Of a DNA stretch of 64,000 bases, positions 4,701-64,000 are shown one piece after another. Every line of letters starts with the position of its first letter. Positions within the stretch are counted from its first letter, which is position 1. Under the pieces are notes generated by a model, which worked only from the letters and a program-made list of their open reading frames with translations, searched no databases and was not told where the DNA came from. This DNA is from Acanthosoma haemorrhoidale (lineage: Eukaryota; Arthropoda; Insecta; Hemiptera; Acanthosomatidae). The stretch is from contig OV884015.1 in NCBI GenBank assembly GCA_930367205.1, positions 35,269,288 through 35,333,287 of the forward strand, read 5' to 3'. The position numbers were made by a program, and so were the translations under genes.

Positions 4701-7700
4701 TAAATGAGTTGTAGGTTGGATTGGGTTTATGAAAAAAAAAATTTCAATTAATGTAAAGGTTAGCCTTTAGCGAAAATTAATTCATTTTTAAAAAGACCAT
4801 TAGAGAAAATTCCAGAAATCTGATCTATTTCCAATTGGTCTCAGTTAATTTTTAACTAAATAATAAAGGAAATATTTATAATATAAATGATAAATGATGT
4901 ATTAATATAACGTAAGACAGATTTCAGAAAACGTATACAAATAGCAAAAAAAATTAAAATATATTTTAGTATATGCGAACATTATCTGACAAATCACGTT
5001 ACAATTTTTAAAACACTTTTTACCACAGGACGTTGCATACAACAACAAAAATTGGGTTTATGAGAGAAAAAAAAGTAGTTTTAATTTATGTAAGTTGTAA
5101 AGATTTAGCCTTCGGCGATAATTACGCCTACGAACTTGACAGTCATGAACCTAAGTTTACTGTTCCCTAAATTAATTTGTGGTGTTAATTTGTCCCTACG
5201 TTTAGTGAATAGGATTTCCATCGGTGAAAGAAATTATTTGCATTCATTATGGAATTTTCAAGCCTTCTAGTAATTTGCCGCATTGCCATGAAGATGTGAC
5301 CATTGCCAAATAATTTGCGAACATATACTAATCGACTAGGTCAGTGGAGACAAATTCGTTAATATTGAATAAATGCCATGAGATAGCCAGTCCCTGTGTC
5401 AACCTAGCAGACTTTAGGGCACAGATCTTGCGTTTTTTATGTTTATAGGAATGTATATTCCTCTCAAATAAAATAGATTAGTTAAATTAAGAAGCTGGGT
5501 GTTCGATACCTTCATTGAGTACTAGCATGACATTTTTCAATGTTATCAAATCGATAGTGGTGATCTTTGAGCTTGAATATTTATTTTTGTTTTGGTATAT
5601 TATTTTTTTACTTTTAATTACCATTAACAAGTACAGTAAAACGAGATATAATGAAAAAGTATAAAACTCGGAGTCAGATTTATTCTGACTGCCTGTCTCG
5701 CCAATTGTATCAAAGGAGCAAGATGAATCGAGAAACATTTATTTCAATAGATGATATAGGATACATAATGGGAATAAATGTATGTTTCTTTGACTTGACT
5801 AAATCCCTCCCGCTTGCCTGTCCAGAAAGAAAAAAAAATAATAACCCCAGGCCGGGTATTGTGTTTCACTGAAACAATGCGTCGTCAAATGGCTTCGTGT
5901 TATGAAAAAAGTTGGAGGTTTCAAATGATCACAAATGAAAAAACGTAGGAACGTTGGCATAATATAGGACTTGTTGCCATTGTTATTTTTAAAAAAAGAA
6001 TACAAATTCCAATCCATTCATTCAACGCTCGTTGAATTCTCGTCAAAATATAATCATTTGACATACATAAGAATAATTTGAGAACGGTACGGTAGTTCAG
6101 AAAGAAAGTTTGATATACATGTATATAACCTGCATCTATTAAGTGAGTATCATATCCTTCATTGAATTGGGAGCATGAAACCTGGCAATGGAGGGGAACA
6201 CTAACTTAATAACTGAATTATAATTGAGGTGTAATGAAAAAGTAGGTATTTGGGCAAAGTAAAGAACTAAAGGAGGTACTCTCTCTACCCTCTCAGGGAA
6301 ACACGATTGACACACGAAGACAACAGTTTAATACTTTGAGAAGCTAAGTATTGTAAAATCCTCACTTTACCAATGGTTACCATCTTCGAGAGATGACCGT
6401 TAAGACTAGGTAGTCCTTCTTTAAGCTGAGGACAGGGCTCAAAATTTTACCCCGTGACAGAAAAATATTATATATAATTATAAAATCAGATTTCAACTAC
6501 CAACGAAAAATTCCCTAGTATTCAGTAGCAGTAAGAGAGAGGCATTGAGAAGCAGGTGCAGTTATTAATGATTAGAAAGCTGATTAGTTTGTTACGAAAT
6601 TTATTCGCTCAAACGTGCTAGTGTCTTCATGTTCGTTATTCTAAAACCAGTGAAATGAATGTAAATTAAAAAAGCAAGTCAACATTTGGAGCAACTACCG
6701 TTTTCCATCATGTGAAATAAGGGAATGGAGGCTGACTTTGAGGAATGACAACCCAAATAGGAAAAAAATTGAAACCAAATGACCAAAGACTGTAAAAAGG
6801 AGTTGAAGAAAATAATTTAAGGTTCCCAAAAAGGTGGTCGACGAAATCCCGTCTAAAATAAATGAATAAAATGTTACCTATCGTATTGTACCTCCACCAA
6901 TGGTTATTGGTATTTATTTCTGAACCATTAATTTGGTACCTCCCTCCTTGGTTGCAAGTTTAATTATTTTAAATTGCTTTTCTGAATACTCGTAAGCTGT
7001 ATTTACTTCTTTATTGTGTGGACCATAATTATAAATTCAGACGCAATACCCTTCAAGTTCAATCAAAAAGTAGTAAGAAAACATTCCGTTCGCTAGGCGA
7101 GAAAACCAAACACTCGAAAGACGATATAGAGACAAAATTGAAAAAAAACAAAGCTTCAATGTCCAATAGACAATAGGGCGGGGGACAGACTCTCTGAAAA
7201 GATTATATCAAGTGAAATCCCATTATTTACACTAGCACGGCTCAAACAATACAACCCTATACAATACACACATGCCTCACTGAATACTACGTGGTCTCCA
7301 TTTCTTTTTATTCCGTTCTACATATTCCACAATTCTCATCTCATTCAATATGGGTAATCAGCTGTCCATCACCTGTAACCAATCCGTGGTTAAAGGTGTC
7401 ATCACCAACAGATTAAATATTTATTTATTTTGGCACGGTTATTAATCCGATGGTTTCGTACTACAAGAAAAAATCCTCATTCCGCACAATAATCAACAAC
7501 TGGCACCAAGTTGAGAACGTTACCAGCAATAGCTACAAAGATTATTCAAAGCCCTAGGAATTAAATGGTCAATCTAAAATTAGGATATAAGGGAAATCAC
7601 AAACGATAAGTTTGCCGTAGAGTCTAAAAAAGGTGGTTAGTTTTATTTTGGGTACGGGTGGGGAATTAAACTAAACTAGCATCATGTCTCTAGTTAAAAC

Positions 7701-10374: not shown

Positions 10375-11056
10375 CAATTATCCAAGCTCCTCCATCAGGC
10401 ACGTCACCGGATACGAGCCAGTGCAGACTGGCCAAGAGTGCGACAGTCGCATACCCTTAGGACAGGATTGGGGAAACTGAACGTTTCAAGGACTCACGCT
10501 GTTACGCATTTATAGCAGGTCACGAGGCCACTGCCGTTTTAGTCTCCGAGGAGGATTATAGGGATGAATGGTGCAGTGCAATCACTTTGCTAGGGGATCA
10601 GGGTGGTTGGGTAGGTCACTATGGAATTTCATGAACCTGGAAAGATTGAGTTCAAGAATATAAGGTATATTAAGATCGTATGAAGGGTTTTGTTGCTGAC
10701 GTAATAAGGGGCATTAACTATTTTTCTTAGGACTTAAGATTGAAAGGATTGGATACGCTTGATGTTCGACTTGTTTGCTGTCTCCCATAACTCTATTCCT
10801 AATGTCCAGATTAGCTTAAATATAACTTTGTAGATTAGTAATTTATTTTCTATTTGATGTCCAAAGATGTCCAAAGCGTCTGTTTAGTTCTTGTCTTTTT
10901 AGCCTCGTATGTGGGTTCCATTTCAGCCTTTTGTCAAGATAGAAGCCTAAATCCTCCTGTCTCGGATACAGGAAGTAGGATGGAATTAAAAGTAACTAGT
11001 GGAGATGACTTGCGGCCGAGAGTAAAGGGGACATTTTTCTTCATTAATTTTTGCTA
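10375..11056 (-). mobile_element. Truncated Jockey-family LINE, 3' part of ORF2
   Basis: This aligns by eye with the copies at 39985-40520 and 56028-57543. The shared blocks include the one encoding the C-terminal region after the reverse transcriptase (around 10500-10800, with the family's AKKSNIKRIQSFQSKVL-type segment) and the block near 10870-11000 that encodes the thumb region. It runs into unrelated AT-rich DNA at about 11056, so it is 5' truncated. Several indels and stops break the frame. The 3'UTR is shorter than in the other copies and no clear poly(A) tail or target duplication was found. Confidence 0.75.
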
Positions 11057-18589: not shown

Positions 18590-20395
18590 TCAATGAGACA
18601 CTTGAGCTTGAATTTGGGAAACTAATTCATCGATGTTTGGATTAATTCCACTGGTACAAAGACGTAAAGAATTTTCCAAATTATCGTCAGTCAGCCTTGT
18701 ACGATGTTTTGATTTATTAACTTTCATCAATGAAAAGAACTGTTCGCATTTATAAGTACTGCCAAACGCACAAATCAATCTTCTTGCAAATTTTCTAAGC
18801 TGCGGAAAATGGTCTTCTTCGAGGTATTTTTTGTAGAAATCGCACAACTCCACGTCTTCAAATTTAGATTTTAGGAGTGAGTTTTCTTGAATCTCGATCA
18901 ACTCCATTTGCAAGTGTATTGGAGCATTTTGTACATTACTTTTTGTTGGAGTAGCAAATAAATTGAAACAGTCTTCCATGTGTTTGAAATCGCTAAATCT
19001 GATCGAAAATTGCTCCGACAGTAACTTGAGTTCTTCAGCATATTGAGCGTAAGCAATATTTTCATACGCAGAGAGCGTGGTGAAATGGTAACTGTTACCA
19101 GACAGCATATGTGCCTCCCACAAGCGGATTTTGTTCTGAAACGCTTTCAAATGGCTGTACAAATCATTTACTAACTGTCCTTGTTTTTGAAGTTTCAAAT
19201 TTAAATCATTCAAATGGCCTGTAAGGTCGACAAGAAATGCTAAGTCACATATCCATTTTGCGTCACTCAATTCAGATAGTGGTTTATCTTTTATTTGCAT
19301 AAATTCTGCTATCTCATTTCTAAGCTCGTAAAACCGTTTCAGCATTTTCCCTTTGCTTAGCCATCTGACTTCACAATAATATGTTACGTCGTCATACTCG
19401 GCTGATATTTCATCCAAAAACGCCTTGAACTGACGATGGTTAAGCCCTCGGGATCGAATAAAATTGATGGTTTTTACTACCACATTCATAACATTCTGGA
19501 GTCGAATGGACTTAGAACACAAGTTCTGTTGGTGGATAATGCAATGAAGGACTATCAAACCATCTTTTTGCACATTTAATTCAGTTGCTTTTTCATTCAA
19601 AATTCCGATGAAACCTTTACGTAAGCCGACCATAGAAGGTGCACCATCTGTGCATACTCCAACTAATTTCGACCATGGCAAGCCAAAACTTGTGAATACC
19701 TTTTGAACTTCATTAAAAATGTCCTCTCCTGTAGTGGTTCCTTTTAGCGGCTGTAAAGCAAGCAATTCCTCAGTAATAGTGAATTCTTTATCAACACCTC
19801 GAATAAATATAGCCAGTTGAGCTATGTCAGACAAATCGGTGCTCTCGTCTAATGCTATGGAAAATGATTCAATACCAGTCATACGGCCAGTCAATGTTGT
19901 TTTTATATCATTAGCCATCATTTCTATACGTCGTACAACGGTTCGTCTTGACAAACTAATTTTTTCAAATTCATTTTTCTTTTCAGGACACAAAACACTG
20001 CAAACTTCTGACATACACTCCTTGATAAATTCTCCTTCGGCAAATGGTTTCAATGACTTTGCCAATTTTGAACTAACTATAAAACTAGCTTTCACAACAT
20101 TATCAAGTTGTGTTCTTTGTCTATGAAATATTTGCTGCTGTTTTTCCAAATTTGCGGTAAGTTTCTGGATTTTGTCTTTTCTTATTTGTCCTGTCAGTGA
20201 GAGCAGCGTAGGATGCTTAGTTGAGTAATGCCTCTTTATATTGAATTCTTTCATCACCGAAATGGATTCATTACACATCAAACAAATAGGCTTACCATTG
20301 TGCAAGATAAAGAAGAATTCTTCAGTCCATTTTTCTTGAAACTGGCGACCCTCTGCATCTACTTTTCGTTTCCTTCCACCAGACATCATTTTCAT
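18590..20395 (-). CDS. hAT transposase, GTF2IRD2-like, 601 residues
   Basis: This transposase cuts and pastes the surrounding element. Residues 25-62 form a BED-like zinc finger (C38, C41, H56, H61). The RNase H-like catalytic core shows the first acidic residue at D183 (SIALDESTD), the second at D250 (VGVCTDGAPSM) and the CxxH insertion-domain motif at 285-288 (LHCIIHQQNLCSK). The CEVRWLSKGKMLKR block is at 341-354, and the last acidic residue is E551 in the C-terminal dimerisation region (YKCEQFFSLMKVNKSKHRT). The length is normal for this group and no motif is missing. The predicted start has methionines at residues 1, 3 and 4; any could be used. The protein resembles the hAT domain of vertebrate GTF2IRD2 and its many arthropod relatives. 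The context is a transposon, with nothing to suggest a domesticated host gene. Confidence 0.93.
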   Translation of the reverse strand: MKMMSGGRKRKVDAEGRQFQEKWTEEFFFILHNGKPICLMCNESISVMKEFNIKRHYSTKHPTLLSLTGQIRKDKIQKLTANLEKQQQIFHRQRTQLDNVVKASFIVSSKLAKSLKPFAEGEFIKECMSEVCSVLCPEKKNEFEKISLSRRTVVRRIEMMANDIKTTLTGRMTGIESFSIALDESTDLSDIAQLAIFIRGVDKEFTITEELLALQPLKGTTTGEDIFNEVQKVFTSFGLPWSKLVGVCTDGAPSMVGLRKGFIGILNEKATELNVQKDGLIVLHCIIHQQNLCSKSIRLQNVMNVVVKTINFIRSRGLNHRQFKAFLDEISAEYDDVTYYCEVRWLSKGKMLKRFYELRNEIAEFMQIKDKPLSELSDAKWICDLAFLVDLTGHLNDLNLKLQKQGQLVNDLYSHLKAFQNKIRLWEAHMLSGNSYHFTTLSAYENIAYAQYAEELKLLSEQFSIRFSDFKHMEDCFNLFATPTKSNVQNAPIHLQMELIEIQENSLLKSKFEDVELCDFYKKYLEEDHFPQLRKFARRLICAFGSTYKCEQFFSLMKVNKSKHRTRLTDDNLENSLRLCTSGINPNIDELVSQIQAQVSH

Positions 20396-23689: not shown

Positions 23690-24010
23690 TTACGTGACAG
23701 TGAGTGGGAGTCCTGGCACTGGCCAGTTTTTCAATCATGTCCTGAGGGGATGTAGCTCTCGCGCTCTTGGTTAGCAACCCCGCTGGCTCGTATCCCGTAA
23801 CGCGGCTAACGAAGGAGCGTGGGGGACTTCCCAAGACCTCACTTCTTCATTTGCATGCGAGGGAGGTAACAATCATGTGAATTTGGGAGGTCTCTGGGTT
23901 GTTATATGTATGTAAATACTGTATGAATGAAAATTGTAAATATGGTATGAATGAGAACATTTATCACCATTACTTATTGCCCAATAAGGCAGATTGTAAT
24001 TTTATCAAAA
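23690..24010 (+). mobile_element. Jockey-family LINE 3' end (plus-strand copy)
   Basis: This is the reverse complement of the 3' region of the copies at 40 and 56 kb. Recognisable blocks are GTCCTGGCACTGGCCAGTTT at 23711-23730, CTCTCGCGCTCTTGG at 23756-23770, GGGGGACTTCCCAAGAC at 23821-23837, and the terminal GGCAGATTGTAATTTTATCA at 23989-24008. Only the last ORF2 codons and the 3'UTR are present. It is the only copy of this family on the plus strand. Confidence 0.8.
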
Positions 24011-27000
24011 TTAAGTTTTTGAATATTTTTTTTTATCCTATACACTCCTTCTCTTTTTTAAATCTAAATTTGTAATTTTTATATTTTACAACAGATCTAG
24101 ATCTAGATTACATTGATATTTTCTACTGCTAGGAACGTAACCTTTTATTCACCAAATCCTTAAAGAAATTCAATCGACAACCAAGCACCAAGATTTAGGC
24201 CAGCTGAGCCAACGACTGCCAGTCACCATGCCACGCTCCGGCCGGCTTTGCGGTTTCTCAAATGCACCCAATTCACTCCGATAATTCCGAAATCCAAGAT
24301 GAATAGACTTCATTAGCTGCCTCTGGGTGGGTATCTTGCTTTAACTAAATTATCTCATCTTGCATACCGCTCTAAGTCCTCATCTCCCCATTTATCCTTC
24401 TCAATTTCCATTACCAACAAAACATTTTATTCGAAACAATTGTCACTAGTTAATTCAAGTATTGGTGACCTCAATTTTTTTTTGAATACGTAAAAAGTTT
24501 GAACTAACATTTTTTGTAACAATTTTGAACCAAACTTTATGTTTTAAAATATATATAAACATATAATAGATTTAAACAGTGAAGGAGCAGCATGGCTAGA
24601 TGGGTTGGTCGCTGGGGAATTACTTCAATAGCAATAAAATTATGAAAAAATCCTGTATGAAAACATTTTTACCAATAACACTTTTATTTTATTTGTTAGA
24701 CCACCTCTGTTATGGACTGTAAAAGTAAAATATACAACGCAAGTAAAAAAATAAACTAGATTTCAGAAGGTTGCTTTGGTGAGATATTCCCGTTTTGAAA
24801 GCAAAAGCTACGAAACCAACTGCTCTACAATAAACTGTGTTGAGCGTGAAACCTTAATTGGTGTTTTGATATTTGGAATAGTAAAACCTTGTACAGATAC
24901 ATCTAGGGCTGCTTCTACAAGTTACAAGGTCATGTTGATTACTAAGATGTGAATGAGTTGCAAATGTGTTATATAGATGATCTGCAAAGCATGCAGCCAT
25001 TCGGCCAGGAATGATCCGGAATGAAAAAAAATGTAGATGATATACTTTATATGCTAAATGAAAAAAAAATGTAAATGATATACTTTATATGAAAAATGAA
25101 AAAAAAAATGTAGATGATATACTTTATATACAAAATGAAAAAAAAATGTAAATGATATACTTTATATGAAAAATGAAAAAAAAATGTAAATGATATACTT
25201 TATATGAAAAATGAAAAAAAAATGTAAATGATATACTTTATATGAAAAATGAAAAAAAAATGTAAATGATATACTTTATATAAAAAATGAAAAAAAAAAA
25301 TGTAGATGATATACTTTATATACAGAATGAAAAAAAGTACCGTTATCTTGTGAAAAAAGTAAGGTTACAGATGTGCTAACTACGTATTGTCTTTGTACGT
25401 CTAAGTATGTATTTTTACGTTAATATGAATCCTTGAGAGCAGAGTCCCGAACAGCCAGAATTGGTAGTTGTACACCTGCGCGCCGGCAGCATGTCATCTC
25501 GTCTGATAGCGAGGACTGACCAGAAGATTTTGCTATAAAGTACGTTTCATTACAAAGACGGTTTTAACAGTTTACGTAGTTCTTGCTCACAAATGATAGG
25601 TCGTTCAAAACCACGGCTTGTGATTCAAAAGTCTACTTCCGTTTCATTAAAACTTCCGTACCGCAAATGTTACTTGACTATGATTTGTAAAACATTATTT
25701 CATATAATACTCGCCCCTTTCGAATGACGGATAATTTTCTGAATTAGAAAAGTTGTAAGCACTCCGCCGCCCCTACGAAATTGCTCCCCTCAGTTCAGCT
25801 AACAACTGCAATAATAACAGTTATTTCTGCAAGGATTCACAACGGATGAGAGGAAGTCAAAATATCATTGGGTTCAAAATCAGGAATTAACTGTCTACGA
25901 TTAATTTTTTCACAAGATAAAATCCCGCTTGTTTCCATTTTCCAATTTTAATATTCAAAGTGTTATTTGTTTAATGTAGTTTTACATGCATCAATTTGGT
26001 TCGTATTTCGAAAACATGAACAATATTCCTGAAATGCAAAGATGAGTTGTCATCACATTCTTGTTTGAAGCCTTTTTGCTTCCTAAAGTTGATCATTCAA
26101 CATACCTGATCACTTTTTTTTCCAGCAAGTTAGAGGGATCTAATCACACTTGCACGAGTGTTGAATATTCAGACCAATCGAACCATTTGCATGGCCACTT
26201 TGATAGAACACAAAAACAAATAGAAATAACCACAGTTATTATTTAAAACTATTGAACATTTATAAGCATTCCTTTCAATATTCCTTCCTTCCTTTATTAT
26301 CCCTGTTAGATTATGTCTTCTTTTTCCTTGGAAGATAAATAAGTAACCGGCGGGAATGCTTAGAAAGTGAGTGAAGTTGAGCAGTGTTGAAAACTTCCTT
26401 GAGCGATCATCTATGAAAAAAAAATTGGTAACATCACCCGGGAAGCCAAGTTAGGCTTCTTCTGTGTGAAACATTGGGAAAATGCCCGTTAAAAATTTAA
26501 AGCTGTTCTGGATCTCTTCTATTGCCAGCACCTTAAGGATTAAACTCTTGATAGGTCCGAGCTGCCACAATGAGCCTTTGTGAAAAGTAATAAGTGAGGA
26601 ACGAAATGAGAGGAATCGAGATAAGGGGGGTTGAGATATTGAAGACTTGGAGTGTTTTATCGGTGGTATTTTTTGGGGTCAGCTTGGGATATATCCTATC
26701 ATATTTTAGTACAGTGAAAACTTCTTTAAAATTCAACTCTTAAAATATATATATAAATTATTAATATTTTTTCCTTAGTTCTCAAACTTGAAAAAAATAA
26801 GGATAAGGGAAAAATAAAAGGATAAATTTATTTGTATTGTGTGGATCCTTTATGTTTATGTGTATGTTTTTTTTAGTAGGTAAATTTTTAGTAGTTACCT
26901 AAAAATAGAAAAAAAAAGACGAATAACGGAAAACGGTGAGGCCTCAACCTATAAAACAAGTGTTATAAATAAAAATATCAAAGGGCAAACCTGTAATGGC

Positions 27001-36884: not shown

Positions 36885-37050
36885 ATGATAAAATTACAAT
36901 CAGCCTCATTGGCCAATAAGTAATTGCAATTTTTACTTCACTCGCTCATTCATACAGTATTTACAAACAGCTTAAGTATAACTTTGTAAATTATTAATTT
37001 GTTTTCTATTGAGAGATGGGATATCCTTTGAAGTAGTCTGTAACAACAAT
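36885..37050 (-). mobile_element. Jockey-family LINE 3' end with internal deletion
   Basis: The terminal 3'UTR (GATAAAATTACAATCAGCCT at 36887-36906, then the TCACTCGCTCATTCATAC block) is joined directly to a block that lies several hundred bp upstream in other copies (TTGTTTTCTATTGAGAGATGGGATATCC). About 0.4 kb of ORF2 end and 3'UTR is missing at the junction near 36970. Neither end shows a clear target duplication. Confidence 0.75.
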
Positions 37051-39984: not shown

Positions 39985-40520
39985 CAATAATTACAATCTG
40001 CCTTTTATAAGGCAATAATAATACAGATAAATGATCTCATTCATATCTTTCATCATTCACTCGCTCATTCATACAATAGGACATGATTGGAGAAACTGGC
40101 CATTGCCAGGACTCCCAATGTCACGCGATTATAGCAGATCACGAGGCCACTGCCGTTTCAGTCTCCGAGGAGGATTATAGGGATGAGTGGCGCAGTGCAA
40201 AGACTGTGCTACAGGATTAGGGTGGTTGGAAAGGCTACTGTGGAATTTCATAAACTTGGAAGGGATGAGTTCTAGAATGTAGGGTATATTAAGGTCGTTA
40301 TGAAGGGTTTTGTTGCTGACATAATAAAGGGCATTTACTATTGTTATCAGGACTTTTGATTGAAAGGATTGGATACGCTTGATGTTCGACTTTTTTGCTG
40401 TCCCCGATAGCTTTAACAATTTAAGGGTTTAAGTATAACTTTGTAGATTAGTAGTTTATTTTCTATTGAGAGATGGGATGTCCTTCGAAGTAGTCTGTAT
40501 AGTTGGCCAAAGCGTCTATA
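39985..40520 (-). mobile_element. Truncated Jockey-family LINE, C-terminus of ORF2 and 3'UTR
   Basis: The 3'UTR block (CATTCACTCGCTCATTCATAC at 40059-40078 and the terminal ACAATCTGCC near 39990) is followed by a 96-codon open frame on the minus strand, 40129-40419. That frame covers LSGTAKKSNIKRIQSFQSKV, TIVNALYYVSNKTLHNDLNI and NPPRRLKRQWPRDLL. It is the Jockey ORF2 C-terminal region, ending at the natural stop. The copy is 5' truncated near 40520 and lacks the 3'UTR section found at 56160-56300. It is better preserved than the 10-kb copy. Confidence 0.8.
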
Positions 40521-54195: not shown

Positions 54196-55859
54196 TCAGT
54201 AAAATAAAGAAACATGGCGCATAACTTTATATTTCTCAAAATCAGTCAACTTAGGATTCCTTGGTGATCTAGAAGAGCTTGGTTTTTCTCCTTCCATGCA
54301 CTTCTTGAAAATGTCCTGAAATTGAGCATTAGACATCATACTGCCACCGGATTCAGTATTGTTGCTGCTTTCATCTCTCTGGCCTGATCCAGGAATGTAA
54401 CCGGAACTTTGAAACTGCTGTGATGCGTATTCATAACATTTCTTAAATGTATCGAATCCAAATGGGAAGGACCCACCTGATGGCATGTATCCTGCTAATG
54501 GGTTACTGTTGTCTCTAACGTCGGCTGATCTTTTCTTGTAAGATGATGGTTTTTCTCCTTCCATACACTTCTTGAAAATGTCCTGAAATTGAGCATTAGA
54601 CATCATACTGCCACCGGATTCAGTATTGTTGCTGCTTTCATCTCTCTGGCCTGATCCAGGAATGTAACCGGAACTTTGAAACTGCTGTGATGCGTATTCA
54701 TAACATTTCTTAAATGTATCGAATCCAAATGGGAAGGACCCACCTGATGGCATGTATCCTGCTAATGGGTTACTGTTGTCTCTAACGTCGGCTGATCTTT
54801 TCTTGTAAGATGATGGTTTTTCTCCTTCCATACACTTCTTGAAAATGTCCTGAAATTGAGCATTAGACATCATACTGCCACCGGATTCAGTACTGTTGCT
54901 GCTTTCATCTCTCTGGCCTGATCCAGGAATGTAACCGGAACTTTGAAACTGCTGTGATGCGTATTCATAACATTTCTTAAATGTATCGAATCCAAATGGG
55001 AAGGACCCACCTGATGGCATGTATCCTGCTAATGGGTTACTGTTGTCTCTAACGTCGGCTGATCTTTTCTTGTAAGATGATGGTTTTTCTCCTTCCATAC
55101 ACTTCTTGAAAATGTCCTGAAATTGAGCATTAGACATCATACTGCCACCGGATTCAGTACTGTTGCTGCTTTCATCTCTCTGGCCTGATCCAGGAATGTA
55201 ACCGGAACTTTGAAACTGCTGTGATGCGTATTCATAACATTTCTTAAATGTATCGAATCCAAATGGGAAGGACCCACCTGATGGCATGTATCCTGCTAAT
55301 GGGTTACTGTTGTCTCTAACGTCGGCTGATCTTTTCTTGTAAGATGATGGTTTTTCTCCTTCCATACACCTCTTGAAAATGTCCTGAAATTGAGCATTAG
55401 ACATCATACTGCCACCGGATTCAGTACTGTTGCTGCTTTCATCTCTCTGGCCTGATCCAGGAATGTAACCGGAACTTTGAAACTGCTGTGATGCGTATTC
55501 ATAACATTTCTTAAATGTATCGAATCCAAATGGGAAGGACCCACCTGATGGCATGTATCCTGCTAATGGGTTACTGTTGTCTCTAACATCGGCTGATCTT
55601 TTCTTGTAAGATGATGGTTTTTCTCCTTCCATACACTTCTTGAAAATGTCCTGAAATTGAGCATTAGACATCATACTGCCACCGGATTCAGTACTGTTGC
55701 TGCTTTCATCTCTCTGGCCTGATCCAGGAATGTAACCGGAACTTTGAAACTGCTGTGATGCGTATTCATAACATTTCTTAAATGTATCGAATCCAAATGG
55801 GAAGGACCCACCAGATGGCATGTATCCAGCTAATGGGTTACTGTTTTCTCTCTGTTCAG
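54196..55859 (-). CDS. Secreted six-unit repeat polyprotein, coding exon 2 (exon 3 of the gene)
   Basis: This is the main exon of a predicted 571-residue secreted protein that I do not recognise. It begins at a good acceptor (TTGATTTCAG|CTGAACAG) in phase 1 and joins the signal-peptide exon at 58264-58315 through a GCT alanine codon. It encodes six units of 89 residues. Each holds PLAGYMPSGGSFPFGFDTFK, a cysteine in FKKCYEYA, an N-[SN]-T glycosylation sequon and a second cysteine in DIFKKCMEG (FKRCMEG in unit 2). Units 1-5 end in PSSYKKR followed by SADVRD, a classic dibasic convertase or furin-like site. Unit 6 ends instead in a unique 30-residue tail. The protein is low in hydrophobics and lacks membrane segments. 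Processing into about 89-residue disulfide-containing peptides is inferred; an uncleaved repetitive secreted protein is the alternative. Confidence 0.88.
54281..55859 (-). repeat. 267-bp coding tandem repeat, about 5.9 copies
   Basis: Period starts fall at 54281, 54548, 54815, 55082, 55349 and 55616, all exactly 267 bp (89 codons) apart. Copies differ at only a handful of positions, for example NST versus NNT in the sequon and KKC versus KRC. Some changes are silent. The outer two copies differ most, and the inner copies are nearly identical. Confidence 0.95.
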
Positions 55860-56017
55860 CTGAAATCAACAAAATTAATACTGGTAAGTTAATGTTTTCT
55901 TAGGTATAAATTAAGTAAATTTAGGAGATCTGTTTGTTTAAATGTATTACAAAATAATTTCATGAACAAGTACACAGTGCTTCCCTCCATAAGTTTTCAA
56001 ATTACTAATGAAAGAGA

Positions 56018-56026
56018 AGTTTTGCA
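56018..56026. repeat. Target site duplication of the intronic LINE (3' side)
   Basis: AGTTTTGCA directly precedes the 15-17 base poly(T) tract and matches 57544-57552 beyond the other end of the LINE. Confidence 0.75.
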
Positions 56027-56027
56027 A

Positions 56028-57543
56028 TTTTTTTTTTTTTTTTAATGATAAAATTACTATCTGCCTGATTGGGCTATAGGTTATTGTGCTATATGATCTC
56101 GTTTATACCAATTTACAATTTCATTCACTCGCTCATTCATACTATATATATACAAACAGCCCAGAGGCCCCCCAAGTCCACATGGTTGTCACCTCCCTCG
56201 CGTGCGAAGGAGGAAGCGGAGTCTTGGGAAGTCCCCTACGCTCCTACATCAGCCGCGACACTGGATATGAGCTAGCGGAGGCTGACCAAGAGCGCGAGAG
56301 TCACAGACGCTCAGGACATGATTAGAGAAACTGGCCATTGCCAGGACTCCCATTGTCACGCATTTATAGCAGGTCACGAGGCCACTGTCGTTTTAGTCTC
56401 CGAGGAAGATTATAGGGATGAGTAGTGCAGTGCAATGACTGTGCTAGGGGATTAGGATGGTTGGATAGGTTACTATGGAATTTCATGGACCTCGAAGGGA
56501 TGATTTCGAGAATGTAAGGTATATTAAGATCGTTATGAAGGGTTTTGTTGCTGACGTAATAAGGGGCATTTCATATTGTTCTCAGGACTTTTGGTTGAAA
56601 GGAATGGATGCGCTTAATGTTCGACTTTTTTGCTGTCCCCCATAGCTCTATTCCGTATGTCCAGATTGGATTAAGTATACCTTTGTAAATAAGTAGTTTA
56701 TTTTCTATTGAGAGATGGGATGTCCTTCAAAGTAGTCTGTACAGTTGTCCAAAGCGTCTGTTTAGTTCTTGTCTTTTTAGCCTTGTGTGTGGGTTCCATG
56801 TCAGTTTTTTGTCGAGATGGAAGCCTAAATACAGTACATTCATACCATATTTACAATTCATCATTCACTCGCTCATTCATAAAATATTTACAAACAGCCA
56901 AGAGGCCCCCCAAGTCCACAAGGTTGTCACCTCCCTCGCATGCGAAGGAGGAAACGGCCTAAATACCGTACTGTCTCAGACACAGGGAGAGGAATTGAAT
57001 TTAAAAAGACTGGCGGACAGGACTTGCGGCAGAGGGTAAAGGTTATGTGGGAACATTTTCCTTCATTGACTTTGATTCGCCATTGGTTGCGCCAATACTC
57101 GATCTCATCAAGGTGTTTTTGAAGGTTTTGGGATGCTATATCAGGGTCTGGATGGGTTGACATGACTGCAGTGTCATCTGCAAATGTTGCCAAGAAGGTA
57201 TTGGTGGTAGAGGGGACATCAGTGGTGTATAGATTACAGAGGATGGGACCCAGGATGCTTCCCTGTAGAACTCCTGCTTTAATGGGATAGTAGTTAGAAC
57301 ATTTTAGGATTAGGAATAGGGTCTGTGGTAAATATCCTTTGAGCTTGTAAAGCAAACCTGCGTGCCAGACCCTGTCAAAAGCTTGAGCTATGTCCAGAAA
57401 GGCAGCAGTGCAATATAATTTGGTTTCAAGGGCTGAGGATATGTGATCAACAACGCGAAGGCCTTGTTGAGCGGTGGAAAGTTTGTTGGCGGAAACCAAA
57501 CTGGTGAGCAGGATAAAGGTTTTTGGATTCAACAATTGGAAGT
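56028..57543 (-). mobile_element. Jockey-family LINE insertion with poly(A) tail, 5' truncated
   Basis: This minus-strand insertion of about 1.5 kb lies in intron 2 of the repeat-polyprotein gene. It has a poly(A) tail (poly(T) on the plus strand, 56028-56043), a 9-bp target duplication, and the family's 3'UTR. The part at 56927-57553 is open for 208 codons of reverse transcriptase. It carries the first catalytic block (AAFLDIAQAFDRVWHAGLL), the GVLQGSILGPILCNLYTTDV block, the FADDTAV catalytic loop and the start of the thumb (ETVRYLG). The C-terminal half is broken by a 120-bp internal insertion and by stops. Truncation occurs within the reverse transcriptase. It is the best reference copy for this family in the window. 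Confidence 0.9.
56838..56957 (-). mobile_element. Nested 120-bp LINE 3'UTR fragment inside the Jockey copy
   Basis: A second piece of this family's 3'UTR (the CATTCACTCGCTCATTCATA to AGGCCCCCCAAGTCCAC blocks) interrupts ORF2. It is flanked by a 14-bp near-perfect duplication, CCTAAATACAGTAC at 56824-56837 and CCTAAATACCGTAC at 56958-56971. The duplication looks like a target site duplication, yet the fragment lacks the last 60 or so bp and the poly(A) of the 3' end. Confidence 0.8.
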
Positions 57544-57552
57544 AGTTTTGCA
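57544..57552. repeat. Target site duplication of the intronic LINE (5' side)
   Basis: AGTTTTGCA, matching 56018-56026. Confidence 0.75.
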
Positions 57553-57859
57553 TTTAATTAACTAATTTTGTTCAAACCCATTTTAAAAAAAACTGTTTTA
57601 CTAATTTGCAAATTTTGTTTTTTCTTGTGTAGGCCACCCACACATTATGGAATTTTCGGTAAGAATATACCACTTTTATCCAAAACGTATTATGCTGGTA
57701 TGTTGTATTACGCATATTTGAGCTCTATTGGTGAACATAACATAAATTCTTTAGTTTTTGGTAGATTTACAAGTGGATGTTCGTGCATTACCAAACTTCT
57801 GGGACTTCTTATCTGTAGCTGTTTTGAAAAGCTGAAAAGCTAGCTCTCAAGGGTACCAA

Positions 57860-58190
57860 AGTCAACCTGCAATGGATCTTGATCGTCGTACTCCCTCCGG
57901 CGTACACCGTAACAGAGTGGCTGACGGACTAGCAAAACAGAATGGACCTGCCAAAAATGATTCGACTCAGCGAATAATTAAGGCGTTAAATAAAACTGAT
58001 AATCAGAGAAAGTGTAGTGTCTAAGCTACTACTTGTCACTGCTCCAAAAAGAATTTTACAAGTTCTTTGAGTAAGAGGCAATGTATTGCTTCATCGCACT
58101 ATATCAAATGTTTAAATAGAATGTGTGCTTTGTGGGGCTGGACAATGGATGGAGATCATCTTGATCTATGACCCATCCTATATCTATATA
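57860..58190 (+). pseudogene. LINE relic with RNase H domain and zinc-knuckle end
   Basis: On the plus strand VNLQWI, a frameshift, then VHRNRVADGLAKQNGP resemble the end of a LINE-encoded RNase H (consensus LxWIPSHxGxxGNExADxLAK). Further on, RGNVLLHRTISNV and CVLCGAGQWMEIILIYDPSY in another frame match the C-terminal cysteine-containing block of I/R1-type LINEs. It is 5' truncated and dead, and older than the neighbouring Jockey copy. Confidence 0.6.
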
Positions 58191-58263
58191 AAGTATTTAT
58201 TTTATAATGGATTCTTTTATCATTACTACGTATAGTGAAATAAATGTGAATAATTGTTCTCAC

Positions 58264-58353
58264 CACTTGCAGAATAAATAAGAGAAATGAGGCAGCAATA
58301 AATTAGATTCCGCATGATAAAATTATAACTTTCCTTTTAGCCAGATATGTCAC
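58264..58353 (-). CDS. Signal-peptide exon of the repeat polyprotein (exon 2)
   Basis: This exon is too short for ordinary gene finding. An acceptor (TTTGTTTACAG) precedes 58353. The exon has 38 bases of 5'UTR, then ATG at 58315-58313 encoding MRNLIYCCLISLIYSAS, and ends G|GTGAGAAC at 58264. The peptide has a short basic start, a hydrophobic core and small residues before the predicted cleavage (SASA-EQRE). The exon ends in phase 1, which is the phase the acceptor at 55859 requires. Joining gives GCT (Ala) and an uninterrupted 571-codon frame. The fit of phase, hydrophobicity and splice sites is the evidence; no transcript was available. Confidence 0.75.
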
Positions 58354-61300: not shown

Positions 61301-61417
61301 TAACCAGAATCTATAAAATTTTAAATGTTAATTTTGTTGTTTTCAAAAGTAAAGAAACTGTATTTAAGAATTAAATTTATCTTATGTTTAAGAATTAGTG
61401 GTTTAATATCAACTTAC
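58354..61417 (-). other. Predicted intron 1 of the repeat-polyprotein gene
   Basis: This interval is mostly AT-rich. A less AT-rich patch at 58535-58650 and two exon-like stretches (59502-59714 on minus, 60537-60652 on plus) lie inside; none could be tied to a family. A poly(T) tract is at 59783-59792. Confidence 0.45.
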
Positions 61418-61469
61418 TTAAAATAATTTCATAGAACTTGCTTCCAGAACTGATGGTAGGTGACTAACT
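61418..61469 (-). other. Noncoding first exon of the repeat-polyprotein gene (5'UTR)
   Basis: This exon would start at the Inr adenine (61469) and end at a strong donor, TTTTAA|GTAAGTTG, with the intron beginning at 61417. It contains an ATG at 61432 that encodes MKLF and then stops at TAA directly at the splice junction. It therefore cannot supply the signal peptide and acts as 5'UTR with a four-codon upstream frame. Assignment to the downstream gene rests on strand, spacing and the acceptor at 58354. Confidence 0.5.
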
Positions 61470-61498
61470 GCAAGACCATTCAAACCGTTGTTTATATA
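61469..61498 (-). promoter_or_regulatory. TATA plus Inr core promoter
   Basis: TATATAAA at 61498-61491 is followed, 29 bases from its first T to the start adenine, by GCAGTTAG at 61471-61464, close to the arthropod initiator TCAGTY. A short leader and a strong donor follow. Strong TATA promoters are typical of tissue-specific secreted-protein genes. It lies about 390 bp downstream of the BNIP1 stop codon on the same strand. Confidence 0.6.
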
Positions 61499-61861
61499 GA
61501 GGCTAACATTAGTAAAATATTCCTTACATTATCTCATCGCATCAGGACACCAAAAATGATAACTATAACTGACTTTTGACAATAAGGTCATCAACCCAGA
61601 ACAATACAACTGATGCATGTTCGGTTATCATAAACCCTATGGTAATAAGCAGTTCTTTTGCCAAACAATCATATTCATAGAACGACTGATAAAAATCCAA
61701 TATGTATAATAGATAATGCCAAAATTCTAATTACATAATTAAGAAACAATAGATTAAAGGGAAATTAAATAGAGGGTGCAAATAAATAATCTTTAATGAT
61801 AACAAATGTAAACATTAATAATATTTAAAAATAAATTATAAAATTTATAAAAACGCTCTGG

Positions 61862-62049
61862 TTACAAAAGTCTCTTCTTTAGAATGTAAAGTACACAAGC
61901 CATGAAAAAAGCGAAACCCAACAACAGTATGAGCTTATCGGTGAACTGGCGCCTTGAATATTTGTCAAGGAGTTTTCCCGATTGAGAAATTGCACTTCTT
62001 GTTTCTTGGAGTTCCCCACTTGTTCCAGTAACTGTCATGGAAGAATTAG
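61862..62049 (-). CDS. BNIP1: BNIP1/Sec20 SNARE, last coding exon (tail anchor)
   Basis: Sec20/BNIP1 is the ER Qb-type SNARE that receives Golgi-derived vesicles and also acts in ER shape and mitophagy. This exon follows a long pyrimidine tract and acceptor (TTTCTTCAG|CTAATTC) in phase 1 and encodes 61 residues and a TAA stop at 61862-61864. The order is diagnostic: the end of the SNARE helix (ELQETRSAISQSGKLL), then DKYSRRQFTDKLILL, a hydrophobic tail anchor (GFAFFMACVLYI) and a lysine/arginine end (LKKRLL). Human BNIP1 ends with closely similar KYNRRELTDK and VLYIVKKRL segments. The upstream exons were not recognised in the remaining 1.95 kb; they may be short or lie beyond the window. An ATTAAA polyadenylation variant lies near 61797. 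Confidence 0.87.
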
Positions 62050-64000
62050 CTGAAGAAAAAAAAAGTAAAGAGAAAGGACATTAATAGCAAGAAAAAAAAA
62101 AAAGAGGTTTAAGCACATTAACTGAATATTAAATAATTAAACAAATCTTTAATTGAACCAATATAAAAAATTAAGTTGTATGCTGAATAATATTATTATT
62201 GTATTTGGTATTAACCCCCTTAAAGTATTTCAACTTAAACCTGTATAGGATGAACCCTTTGCTAGCTATAGTGGAAAAACTGAATTCATTAAATATTGAG
62301 CAAAAAAATAAATCAATTTCACGCTGTTCTGTTACAAATGAACTGTAACCCATATGCCAGGATTCTTGGGGGTCCATAAATTGTTAGATTATAATACATA
62401 TTTAATGTCATCTATTTTTAAAATTACAGAAACTACTTTTACAGCTTTCGGAAGATATTGTCAACAGCATGATGCAGATACAATATTTGGTACGGAAGTT
62501 TGTATTGTAATGATACTAATATGATCACATTAAATTTATCTATTAGAATTAACTTAATTTTAAGGAAGTGGGTTTTCTGTTGAAATAATTTGTTTAAAAA
62601 TAGTATTTTGAACCTAACAATATAAAACCGGGTATAAAGGTCACCTTTTGGGAAAACCAGGTATATATGATGGGGTGATGGTGTATAATGTATTGTGGCC
62701 TATAAATAGCAGGGTGGAGACAAAGAATGAGTCTGTTGGTTTTAGGTCCTTCATTTTGTAACCCGAAGTTGGGCCCCATCATCTAGCCCCCTTACATTGT
62801 ATAATTTTTTTAGCCATAATCCAATTTTTCTTGGCTTGTAAGACCTTAAATGCAGCTCTGTTCCAGTACAAGGAGTCATACATAACCTTAATGAATATGG
62901 TATTTTTGTTTAGTCAGTTCAGAAGTGTAGTTCTATCATTAGGCCAGGGTGCTGGAGAGAAACCACATGTTTTAGACCATCGAGTAGAAGCCACTAGGAC
63001 TGACAAAACCACCTCCCCCACCCAACAACAAAGATGGTACATTCTTTAAGTTACTATAAATCATTGTTTATATAGGGCAATTATTATTTAAATGATATAA
63101 ATTCCTTTAGCCGATTATGTTAATAGGAAAGATTTGAAATAGACAAAATTATGGTCCTTAAAACCTGAGCAGATTGAATAAAGTGTGCGAAAATAAACTA
63201 TTATTCTTTATAACTTATGTCGTTTAAATCCTTATGATTAAAAAAGTAAAAAATTTTGCAATGATGATTATTGTTATGACAAATAAAATCTTTTTTCCGC
63301 CTACCACAATGTTCATCCATCTCTAACCTGAATTTTCCTTTCTTTTATTATTACTATTACACATGAATAAAATTAAATAAAAAAGATTCCTTCCAAGGAA
63401 GTATTGGTGATGGCCAGAAGGTTATAACCATCTAGCTCAGTCTAGAACTCAACATATGGCAGTCTCTTACTTAATTTTGAGAACTACTAAAATAATATTT
63501 TAATTTATTGATCATAAGTGTTTAATAATTCTATACCTAGGCTTATTGCAATACTCTTCCATTAGCACACCACCATATACTAAACCATTTTATAACTGTC
63601 CAATGGTGAGATAAAACTAGCAGGAACTAAAACCGATCCAATCATTAATTCGATTAGAGAAATTGTGGGTAAAATAAGAATTAATTTTGTATTTTCATTT
63701 AAATGAAGAACAATTATTATGGATATTGAAGTATACCCCATGAGGACTTTGATAACCATTTATATGTACTCATAACAGTTCCACTCTTGTATTGGTTAGT
63801 AAAGTTATGTTACCAACTTCATGTAGGAAAATTCAATGAAAGATTGACCCCCATCCAAAGTAATTTTTCAGAAACAAACCAATTTTTTTTTTTCTTTGAT
63901 TCTTCAGGGCCATCCATCATCCTATACAAAGGGATCTGGTTGGTATAAGTCAATTACTTCCCATAGAGTGGTACATCACTCAATATTAAATATGCAATAT
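62050..64000 (-). other. Predicted intron of BNIP1 and upstream DNA
   Basis: No further BNIP1 exon could be read on the minus strand. On the plus strand an acceptor-like tract at 63882-63908 is followed by a frame open to the window end, but it has no recognisable family and could be chance. Confidence 0.4.

Follow-up and report, generated by a model that had tools for sequence, protein, structure and literature searches.

A 64,000-nucleotide stretch of contig OV884015.1 of the hemipteran Acanthosoma haemorrhoidale (the window, in whose positions the coordinates below are given unless a contig is named) carries on its minus strand a gene with a putative 5' untranslated region (UTR) exon, a signal-peptide exon and a 1.66-kb repeat exon, which together would yield a 571-residue precursor. 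There is little doubt that this is a real gene, and its product is very probably secreted. We lean towards the view that it encodes a pentatomoid bug's tandemly repetitive secreted polyprotein, cut at KKR into six disulfide-bonded proteins of 9-12 kDa.

The precursor gene and its repeat array

The features of the gene, from promoter to polyadenylation signal, are as follows.

61493..61498, minus strand: TATA-like match TATATA (pattern match), 27 bp upstream of an initiator (Inr)-like GCAGTT (61471); putative
61418..61471 (about), minus strand: putative 5' UTR exon, from sequence only; donor GTAAGT at 61417
58264..58353, minus strand: exon 2, the end of the 5' UTR and the signal peptide; ATG at 58315-58313
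54196..55859, minus strand: exon 3, the entire mature repeat array, tail and stop codon, intron-free
55579..55845, minus strand: unit 1, preceded by EQRE in place of DVRD; KKR codons 55605-55597
55312..55578, minus strand: unit 2, in which K to R gives FKRC; KKR codons 55338-55330
55045..55311, minus strand: unit 3; KKR codons 55071-55063
54778..55044, minus strand: unit 4, same sequence as unit 3; KKR codons 54804-54796
54511..54777, minus strand: unit 5, sequon NNT; KKR codons 54537-54529
54274..54510, minus strand: unit 6, homologous for 79 of 89 residues, through KPSS; without KKR
54196..54273, minus strand: unique tail of 25 residues (SRSPRNPKLTDFEKYKVMRHVSLFY) and stop codon
54137..54142, minus strand: AATAAA polyadenylation signal (pattern match)

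The intron between exons 2 and 3 has a GT donor from 58263 and an AG acceptor up to 55860, and the 58264/55859 join leaves 571 codons open, the first residues being MRNLIYCCLISLIYSASAEQREN. Nine donor/acceptor combinations in a range of 1-2 bases were compared: the frame is lost in six and survives in three, and among these three GT and AG occur together just once (58264/55859). At the level of sequence, the splice sites and frame of the precursor are confirmed. The encoded chain consists of MRNLIYCCLISLIYSASA, EQRE, six units (the sixth of 79 residues) and the 25-residue tail; its signal-peptide-like N-terminus, judged by eye, ends in SASA. From stop to stop the precursor frame spans 567 amino acids; only one frame in the window, of 601 (the hAT-type transposase, see below), is longer, and the next has 208.

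The 5' end of the gene is less well fixed. A promoter scan of 61418-61900 found, besides the TATA at 61498 and the Inr at 61471, one further TATA-like and four further Inr-like matches, and because of these the promoter assignment is loose and the start is a guess. The putative 5' UTR exon closes with an upstream open reading frame of four codons (ATGAAATTATTTTAA; 61418-61432, minus strand).

Tandem Repeats Finder (TRF) describes the array as 5.9 copies of 267 bp with 99% matches (54280-55851), and of the six reading frames of one unit the coding frame alone is open. Relative to unit 3, unit 4 has no base difference, units 2 and 5 have one each, and unit 1 has three, all silent; unit 6 has two up to base 230 and is divergent thereafter. 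Every one of the five unit junctions has KKR, in each case as SSY-KKR directly followed by SADVRD. Two cysteines and a single sequon, NST in units 1-4 and NNT in units 5-6, are present in all six units. Because the units are near-identical, the KKR, the cysteines and the sequon each amount to one observation and not to independent conservation.

An initial annotation of this DNA had proposed a spliced precursor with a signal peptide, six near-identical 89-residue units and a unique tail. The open 571-codon join and the TRF array bear out its coordinates, spliced frame, signal peptide, near-identical units and tail, and the KKR-SADVRD junction between each pair of units, the two cysteines and the one sequon per unit were likewise found as proposed. 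The length of 89 residues holds for units 1-5 and fails for unit 6.

Judged by its own sequence, each unit seems to have arisen by an ancient duplication, since diverged, of a segment made up of a Ser/Gly-rich linker and an FKKC helix. The first half of the unit (DVRDNSNPLAGYMPSGGSFPFGFDTFKKCYE) aligns with the second half (DESSNSTESGGSMMSNAQFQ, a three-residue gap and DIFKKCME) with a score of 47. With the split fixed, 2 of 20000 shuffles reached this score, and none of 2000 did so when the split was varied in steps of three residues.

Some coding constraint on the units is weakly favoured by an excess of silent changes. Four of six independent base changes among the units are silent, which has a probability of 0.015 when every base change is given the same chance (19.4% silent expected) and of 0.089 if transitions only are considered (32.2% silent expected). 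In this count the S-to-N change common to units 5 and 6 was entered once, and neither unit 6 past base 230 nor the stretch preceding unit 1 was included.

Relatives of the unit and copies in the genome

Three protein searches were made against 5.8 billion proteins, with candidates of about 61 to 1000 residues between them and E values up to 1; the method requires shared exact 5-residue words, so that diverged or never-predicted relatives can escape it. No unit relative was obtained within these limits with the full precursor (only the 7994 candidates richest in shared words were scored), with the signal peptide plus one unit (1 candidate), or with the signal peptide plus two units and a fragment of the neighboring Sec20 exon (4948 candidates; see below). 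The Sec20 fragment served as a built-in control and gave seven matches, all to Sec20-domain proteins, including those of Halyomorpha and Nezara, which indicates that some stink-bug proteins are in the database.

Other collections gave the same picture. A single unit has no match in Pfam. A 200-residue piece made of the signal peptide and two units gave Cohesin_HEAT (E 0.0017), Transposase_24 (E 0.034) and DUF6268 (E 2.4), all below the cut-offs and taken to be chance matches lifted by the repeat. A one-unit query of the PDB returned two fluorescent-protein chains (E 1.3 and 1.5), again judged to be chance, and no credible relative. Among viral contigs there were five pattern matches, none of which was confirmed. 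In the open-licence PMC literature, searched by title or abstract start, no account of this protein appeared among papers on insect or hemipteran polyproteins, saliva and precursors, and a search with six peptide fragments led to an unrelated paper only. The sole mention of a polyprotein in the consulted portion of PMC5834209 concerns a virus polyprotein, and the word is absent from that of PMC10570428. The initial annotation had recognized no family, and the protein, Pfam and PDB searches agree; the sequence evidence supports the view that the unit is an orphan family.

The host genome (865.6 Mb in 72 contigs) was searched twice, with the first-look candidates alone scored (8 and 9), so that diverged paralogues may escape. 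The first search gave seven matches, six in the array on contig C5 and one on contig C4. The second search, which added the signal peptide and the tail and went up to E 10, gave nine: six in the array, one in exon 2 (the signal-peptide exon, C5:35327540-35327602, E 0.0104) and two that overlap at the place on C4. The precursor-related loci found in the genome are thus the C5 gene and one C4 fragment.

The C4 fragment (C4:11454210-11454462, about 4711-4963 of locus L008) begins with GATCAGCCGATG, the SADVRD codons, and contains a single unit whose DNA is 91-92% identical and whose frame is broken; the second helix region is missing. It continues into the start of the unique tail and then into unrelated sequence. 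To judge from these letters, it is a dead one-unit-plus-tail copy; this suggests that the array was homogenised in its present form only after unit and tail had been copied, and it shows how drift acts on an unused copy. One match row extends the C4 alignment back to query residue 5, within the signal peptide, across three TGA stops. When the 80 bases upstream of the fragment were compared with exon 2, the intron end and the junction, 0.49, 0.82 and 0.80, respectively, of 5000 shuffles reached the score. We do not claim the fragment as a spliced retrocopy or as an intact single-unit ancestor, since these 80 bases match no better than shuffles.

Proposed processing of the precursor and alternative readings

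In the proposed pathway, the precursor chain would enter the secretory pathway and each unit would fold into two short helices with its cysteines paired. A single-sequence AlphaFold2 model places helices at residues 20-34 and 62-73 of a 90-residue stretch, both containing FKKC; the two cysteines, which occupy the equivalent place in each half-repeat, may pair within the unit. A proprotein convertase would then cleave after KKR, and a carboxypeptidase would trim the basic residues. The secreted products would be one protein of 84 residues, four of 86 and one of 110, with computed masses, without glycans, of 9268 Da (unit 1, 84 residues), 9369 Da (unit 3, 86 residues) and 12314 Da (unit 6 plus tail, 110 residues). 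With this tandem layout, one transcript would yield much of one small protein.

That the units are released separately seems to us a fairly probable outcome. Release is plausible because, in a passage of PMC7179676, the precursors of insect neuropeptides, CCAP among them, are described as cleaved at flanking KKR sites. The N-terminus that such a cut would leave, SADVRDNS, is similar to the first residues of unit 1, SAEQRENS, as though a mature N-terminus were retained in every unit. The release of five or six copies had been proposed earlier; the five KKR sites are there and their use is a plausible prediction, and if all were cut, six products would result, the unique tail being on one of them. 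The salivary, accessory or silk gland that the same annotation named as possible tissues is a guess. The classical furin motif carries an Arg at P4. With Tyr in place of Arg at P4 of the junction, convertase specificities favour a PC2-like enzyme, acting in a regulated secretory cell, over classical furin.

Several points weigh against processing into separate folded proteins. The Tyr at P4 leaves the junction outside the classical furin motif, and the five KKR sites, being copies of one, prove no constraint; the repeats were homogenised too recently to reveal selection on KKR, and the protein searches yielded no relative able to show KKR conserved. Proteins that are never cleaved also evolve homogenised arrays. 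The structure model is weak (mean predicted local distance difference test score, pLDDT, 55.5), and the evidence for purifying selection is slight, losing significance when transitions only are considered.

The main rival is a secreted, repetitive structural protein that stays intact, such as one of a gelling saliva, an egg glue or a seminal plug. Its units would remain linked and KKR would be incidental; the cysteines would cross-link chains and the Ser/Gly-rich linkers would supply flexibility. Ser and Gly together account for 159 of the 571 precursor residues, homogenised tandem arrays are common among structural proteins, and the missing P4 Arg fits a junction that is not cut. However, the tribasic stretch coincides exactly with the boundary between units, the residues after it look like the beginning of unit 1, and it is the final unit that is without KKR. 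We regard such a protein as unlikely, though as having a real chance. A neuropeptide or hormone precursor from whose units short bioactive peptides are excised would share the signal peptide, the KR-type junctions and the repeated copies, but units of 84-110 residues, an N-glycan sequon and the absence of a Gly amidation signal before KKR make it very improbable, and there was no match among the families covered by the protein, Pfam and PDB searches, no dedicated neuropeptide library being among them. At 84-110 residues and with a sequon, a unit has more in common with a small secreted protein than with a neuropeptide. The earlier interpretation of the locus as a precursor stands as regards secretion, repeated units and basic junctions, but its small glycosylated peptide is better described as something nearer a small secreted protein.

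It is very improbable that the locus is functionless, whether recently expanded, decaying or an effect of assembly. Such a locus could well be an orphan with no relative in the protein searches, with nearly identical repeats and with a dead partial copy elsewhere in the genome. But the frame, splice sites and signal peptide are intact and TATA/Inr-like and polyadenylation elements are present, and at 91-92% identity the dead copy is broken, yet all six units of the array are open. The reading that we prefer remains that of a polyprotein, and its best expression is the bulk production of a small secreted protein.

Genomic context and comparison with known precursors

The last exon of a Sec20 (SNARE) gene lies at 61862-62080 on the minus strand (Pfam Sec20, E 1.9e-15). 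It ends about 390 bp upstream of the putative start of the precursor, on the same strand, and is a useful synteny anchor. Over 61-62 residues it is 95% identical to the protein of Halyomorpha halys, 94% to that of Nezara viridula, 79% to that of Cimex lectularius and 69% to that of Nesidiocoris tenuis, with 97% and 90% identity to two further database proteins (P0001 and P0005). Judged from this one exon, the host would belong among pentatomoid-like bugs. Mobile and repeated DNA is also found in the window. Intron 2 of the precursor gene holds a broken retrotransposon without long terminal repeats (non-LTR) with an RVT_1 match (56046-57553, minus strand), inside which about 120 bp at 56102-56219 recur at 56839-56957; similar pieces lie at 10386-10952, 23705-24007, 36972-37042 and 40078-40517. 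The hAT-type transposase is a 601-residue open frame at 18590-20395 (minus strand) that matches zf-C2H2_12 and hAT dimerisation above cut-off, and a 38-bp minisatellite occupies 25020-25336 (8.3 copies, 92% matches, TRF).

The precursor has a signal peptide, tandem similar units and a regularly spaced basic motif, the features of a tandemly repetitive polyprotein, which is a mode of working and not a homology family. Pfam includes a family for the nematode polyprotein allergens (NPA), but neither a single unit nor the 200-residue piece with two units matched it when Pfam-A was searched to E 10. Part of PMC3079579 describes tandemly repetitive polyproteins as rare in nature, and the NPA as found only in nematodes, with the cleavage motif K/R-X-K/R-R. 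Like the NPA ABA-1 as described there, the precursor has nearly identical units in tandem, each with two conserved cysteines, as well as basic junctions and an array with few or no introns, and the confinement of its repeats to one intron-free exon fits that source's description of tandemly repetitive polyproteins; its junction, YKKR, differs from the NPA motif in that P4 is not basic (PMC3079579). Two cysteines per unit, as in the NPA, are not sufficient for membership. The best reading by analogy is that the precursor would work like the nematode polyprotein allergens but is unrelated to them.

Other precursors resemble it in part. Profilaggrin, according to the abstract of PMC5053269, is a single chain from which cleavage makes many copies of one protein, but kinship with the precursor is unsupported, there being no Pfam or PDB match. 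Insect neuropeptide precursors, as outlined in PMC7179676, share the signal peptide and the flanking KKR-type sites; they differ from the present case, with its long sequon-bearing units, lack of an amidation signal and lack of a match to a known family. Precursors of apidaecin-type antimicrobial peptides contain several copies each. Unlike these, the units here are long, bear cysteines and are not proline-rich.

As to origin, we can offer only the tentative proposal that this is a lineage-restricted and perhaps recently born stink-bug gene, in which the tandem strategy of the nematode allergens evolved independently, through duplication of a half-unit and then amplification of a single-unit gene, and which would supply large amounts of a new family of small, disulfide-bonded glycoproteins. 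An insect polyprotein of an orphan family is notable in itself. With an unrelated unit, and with a live gene and a dead one-unit-plus-tail fragment in one genome, it would make the origin of such an array traceable stepwise. Should the product turn out to belong to saliva or to the reproductive system, an insect group rich in pests would have a new secreted protein of which each transcript supplies many copies.

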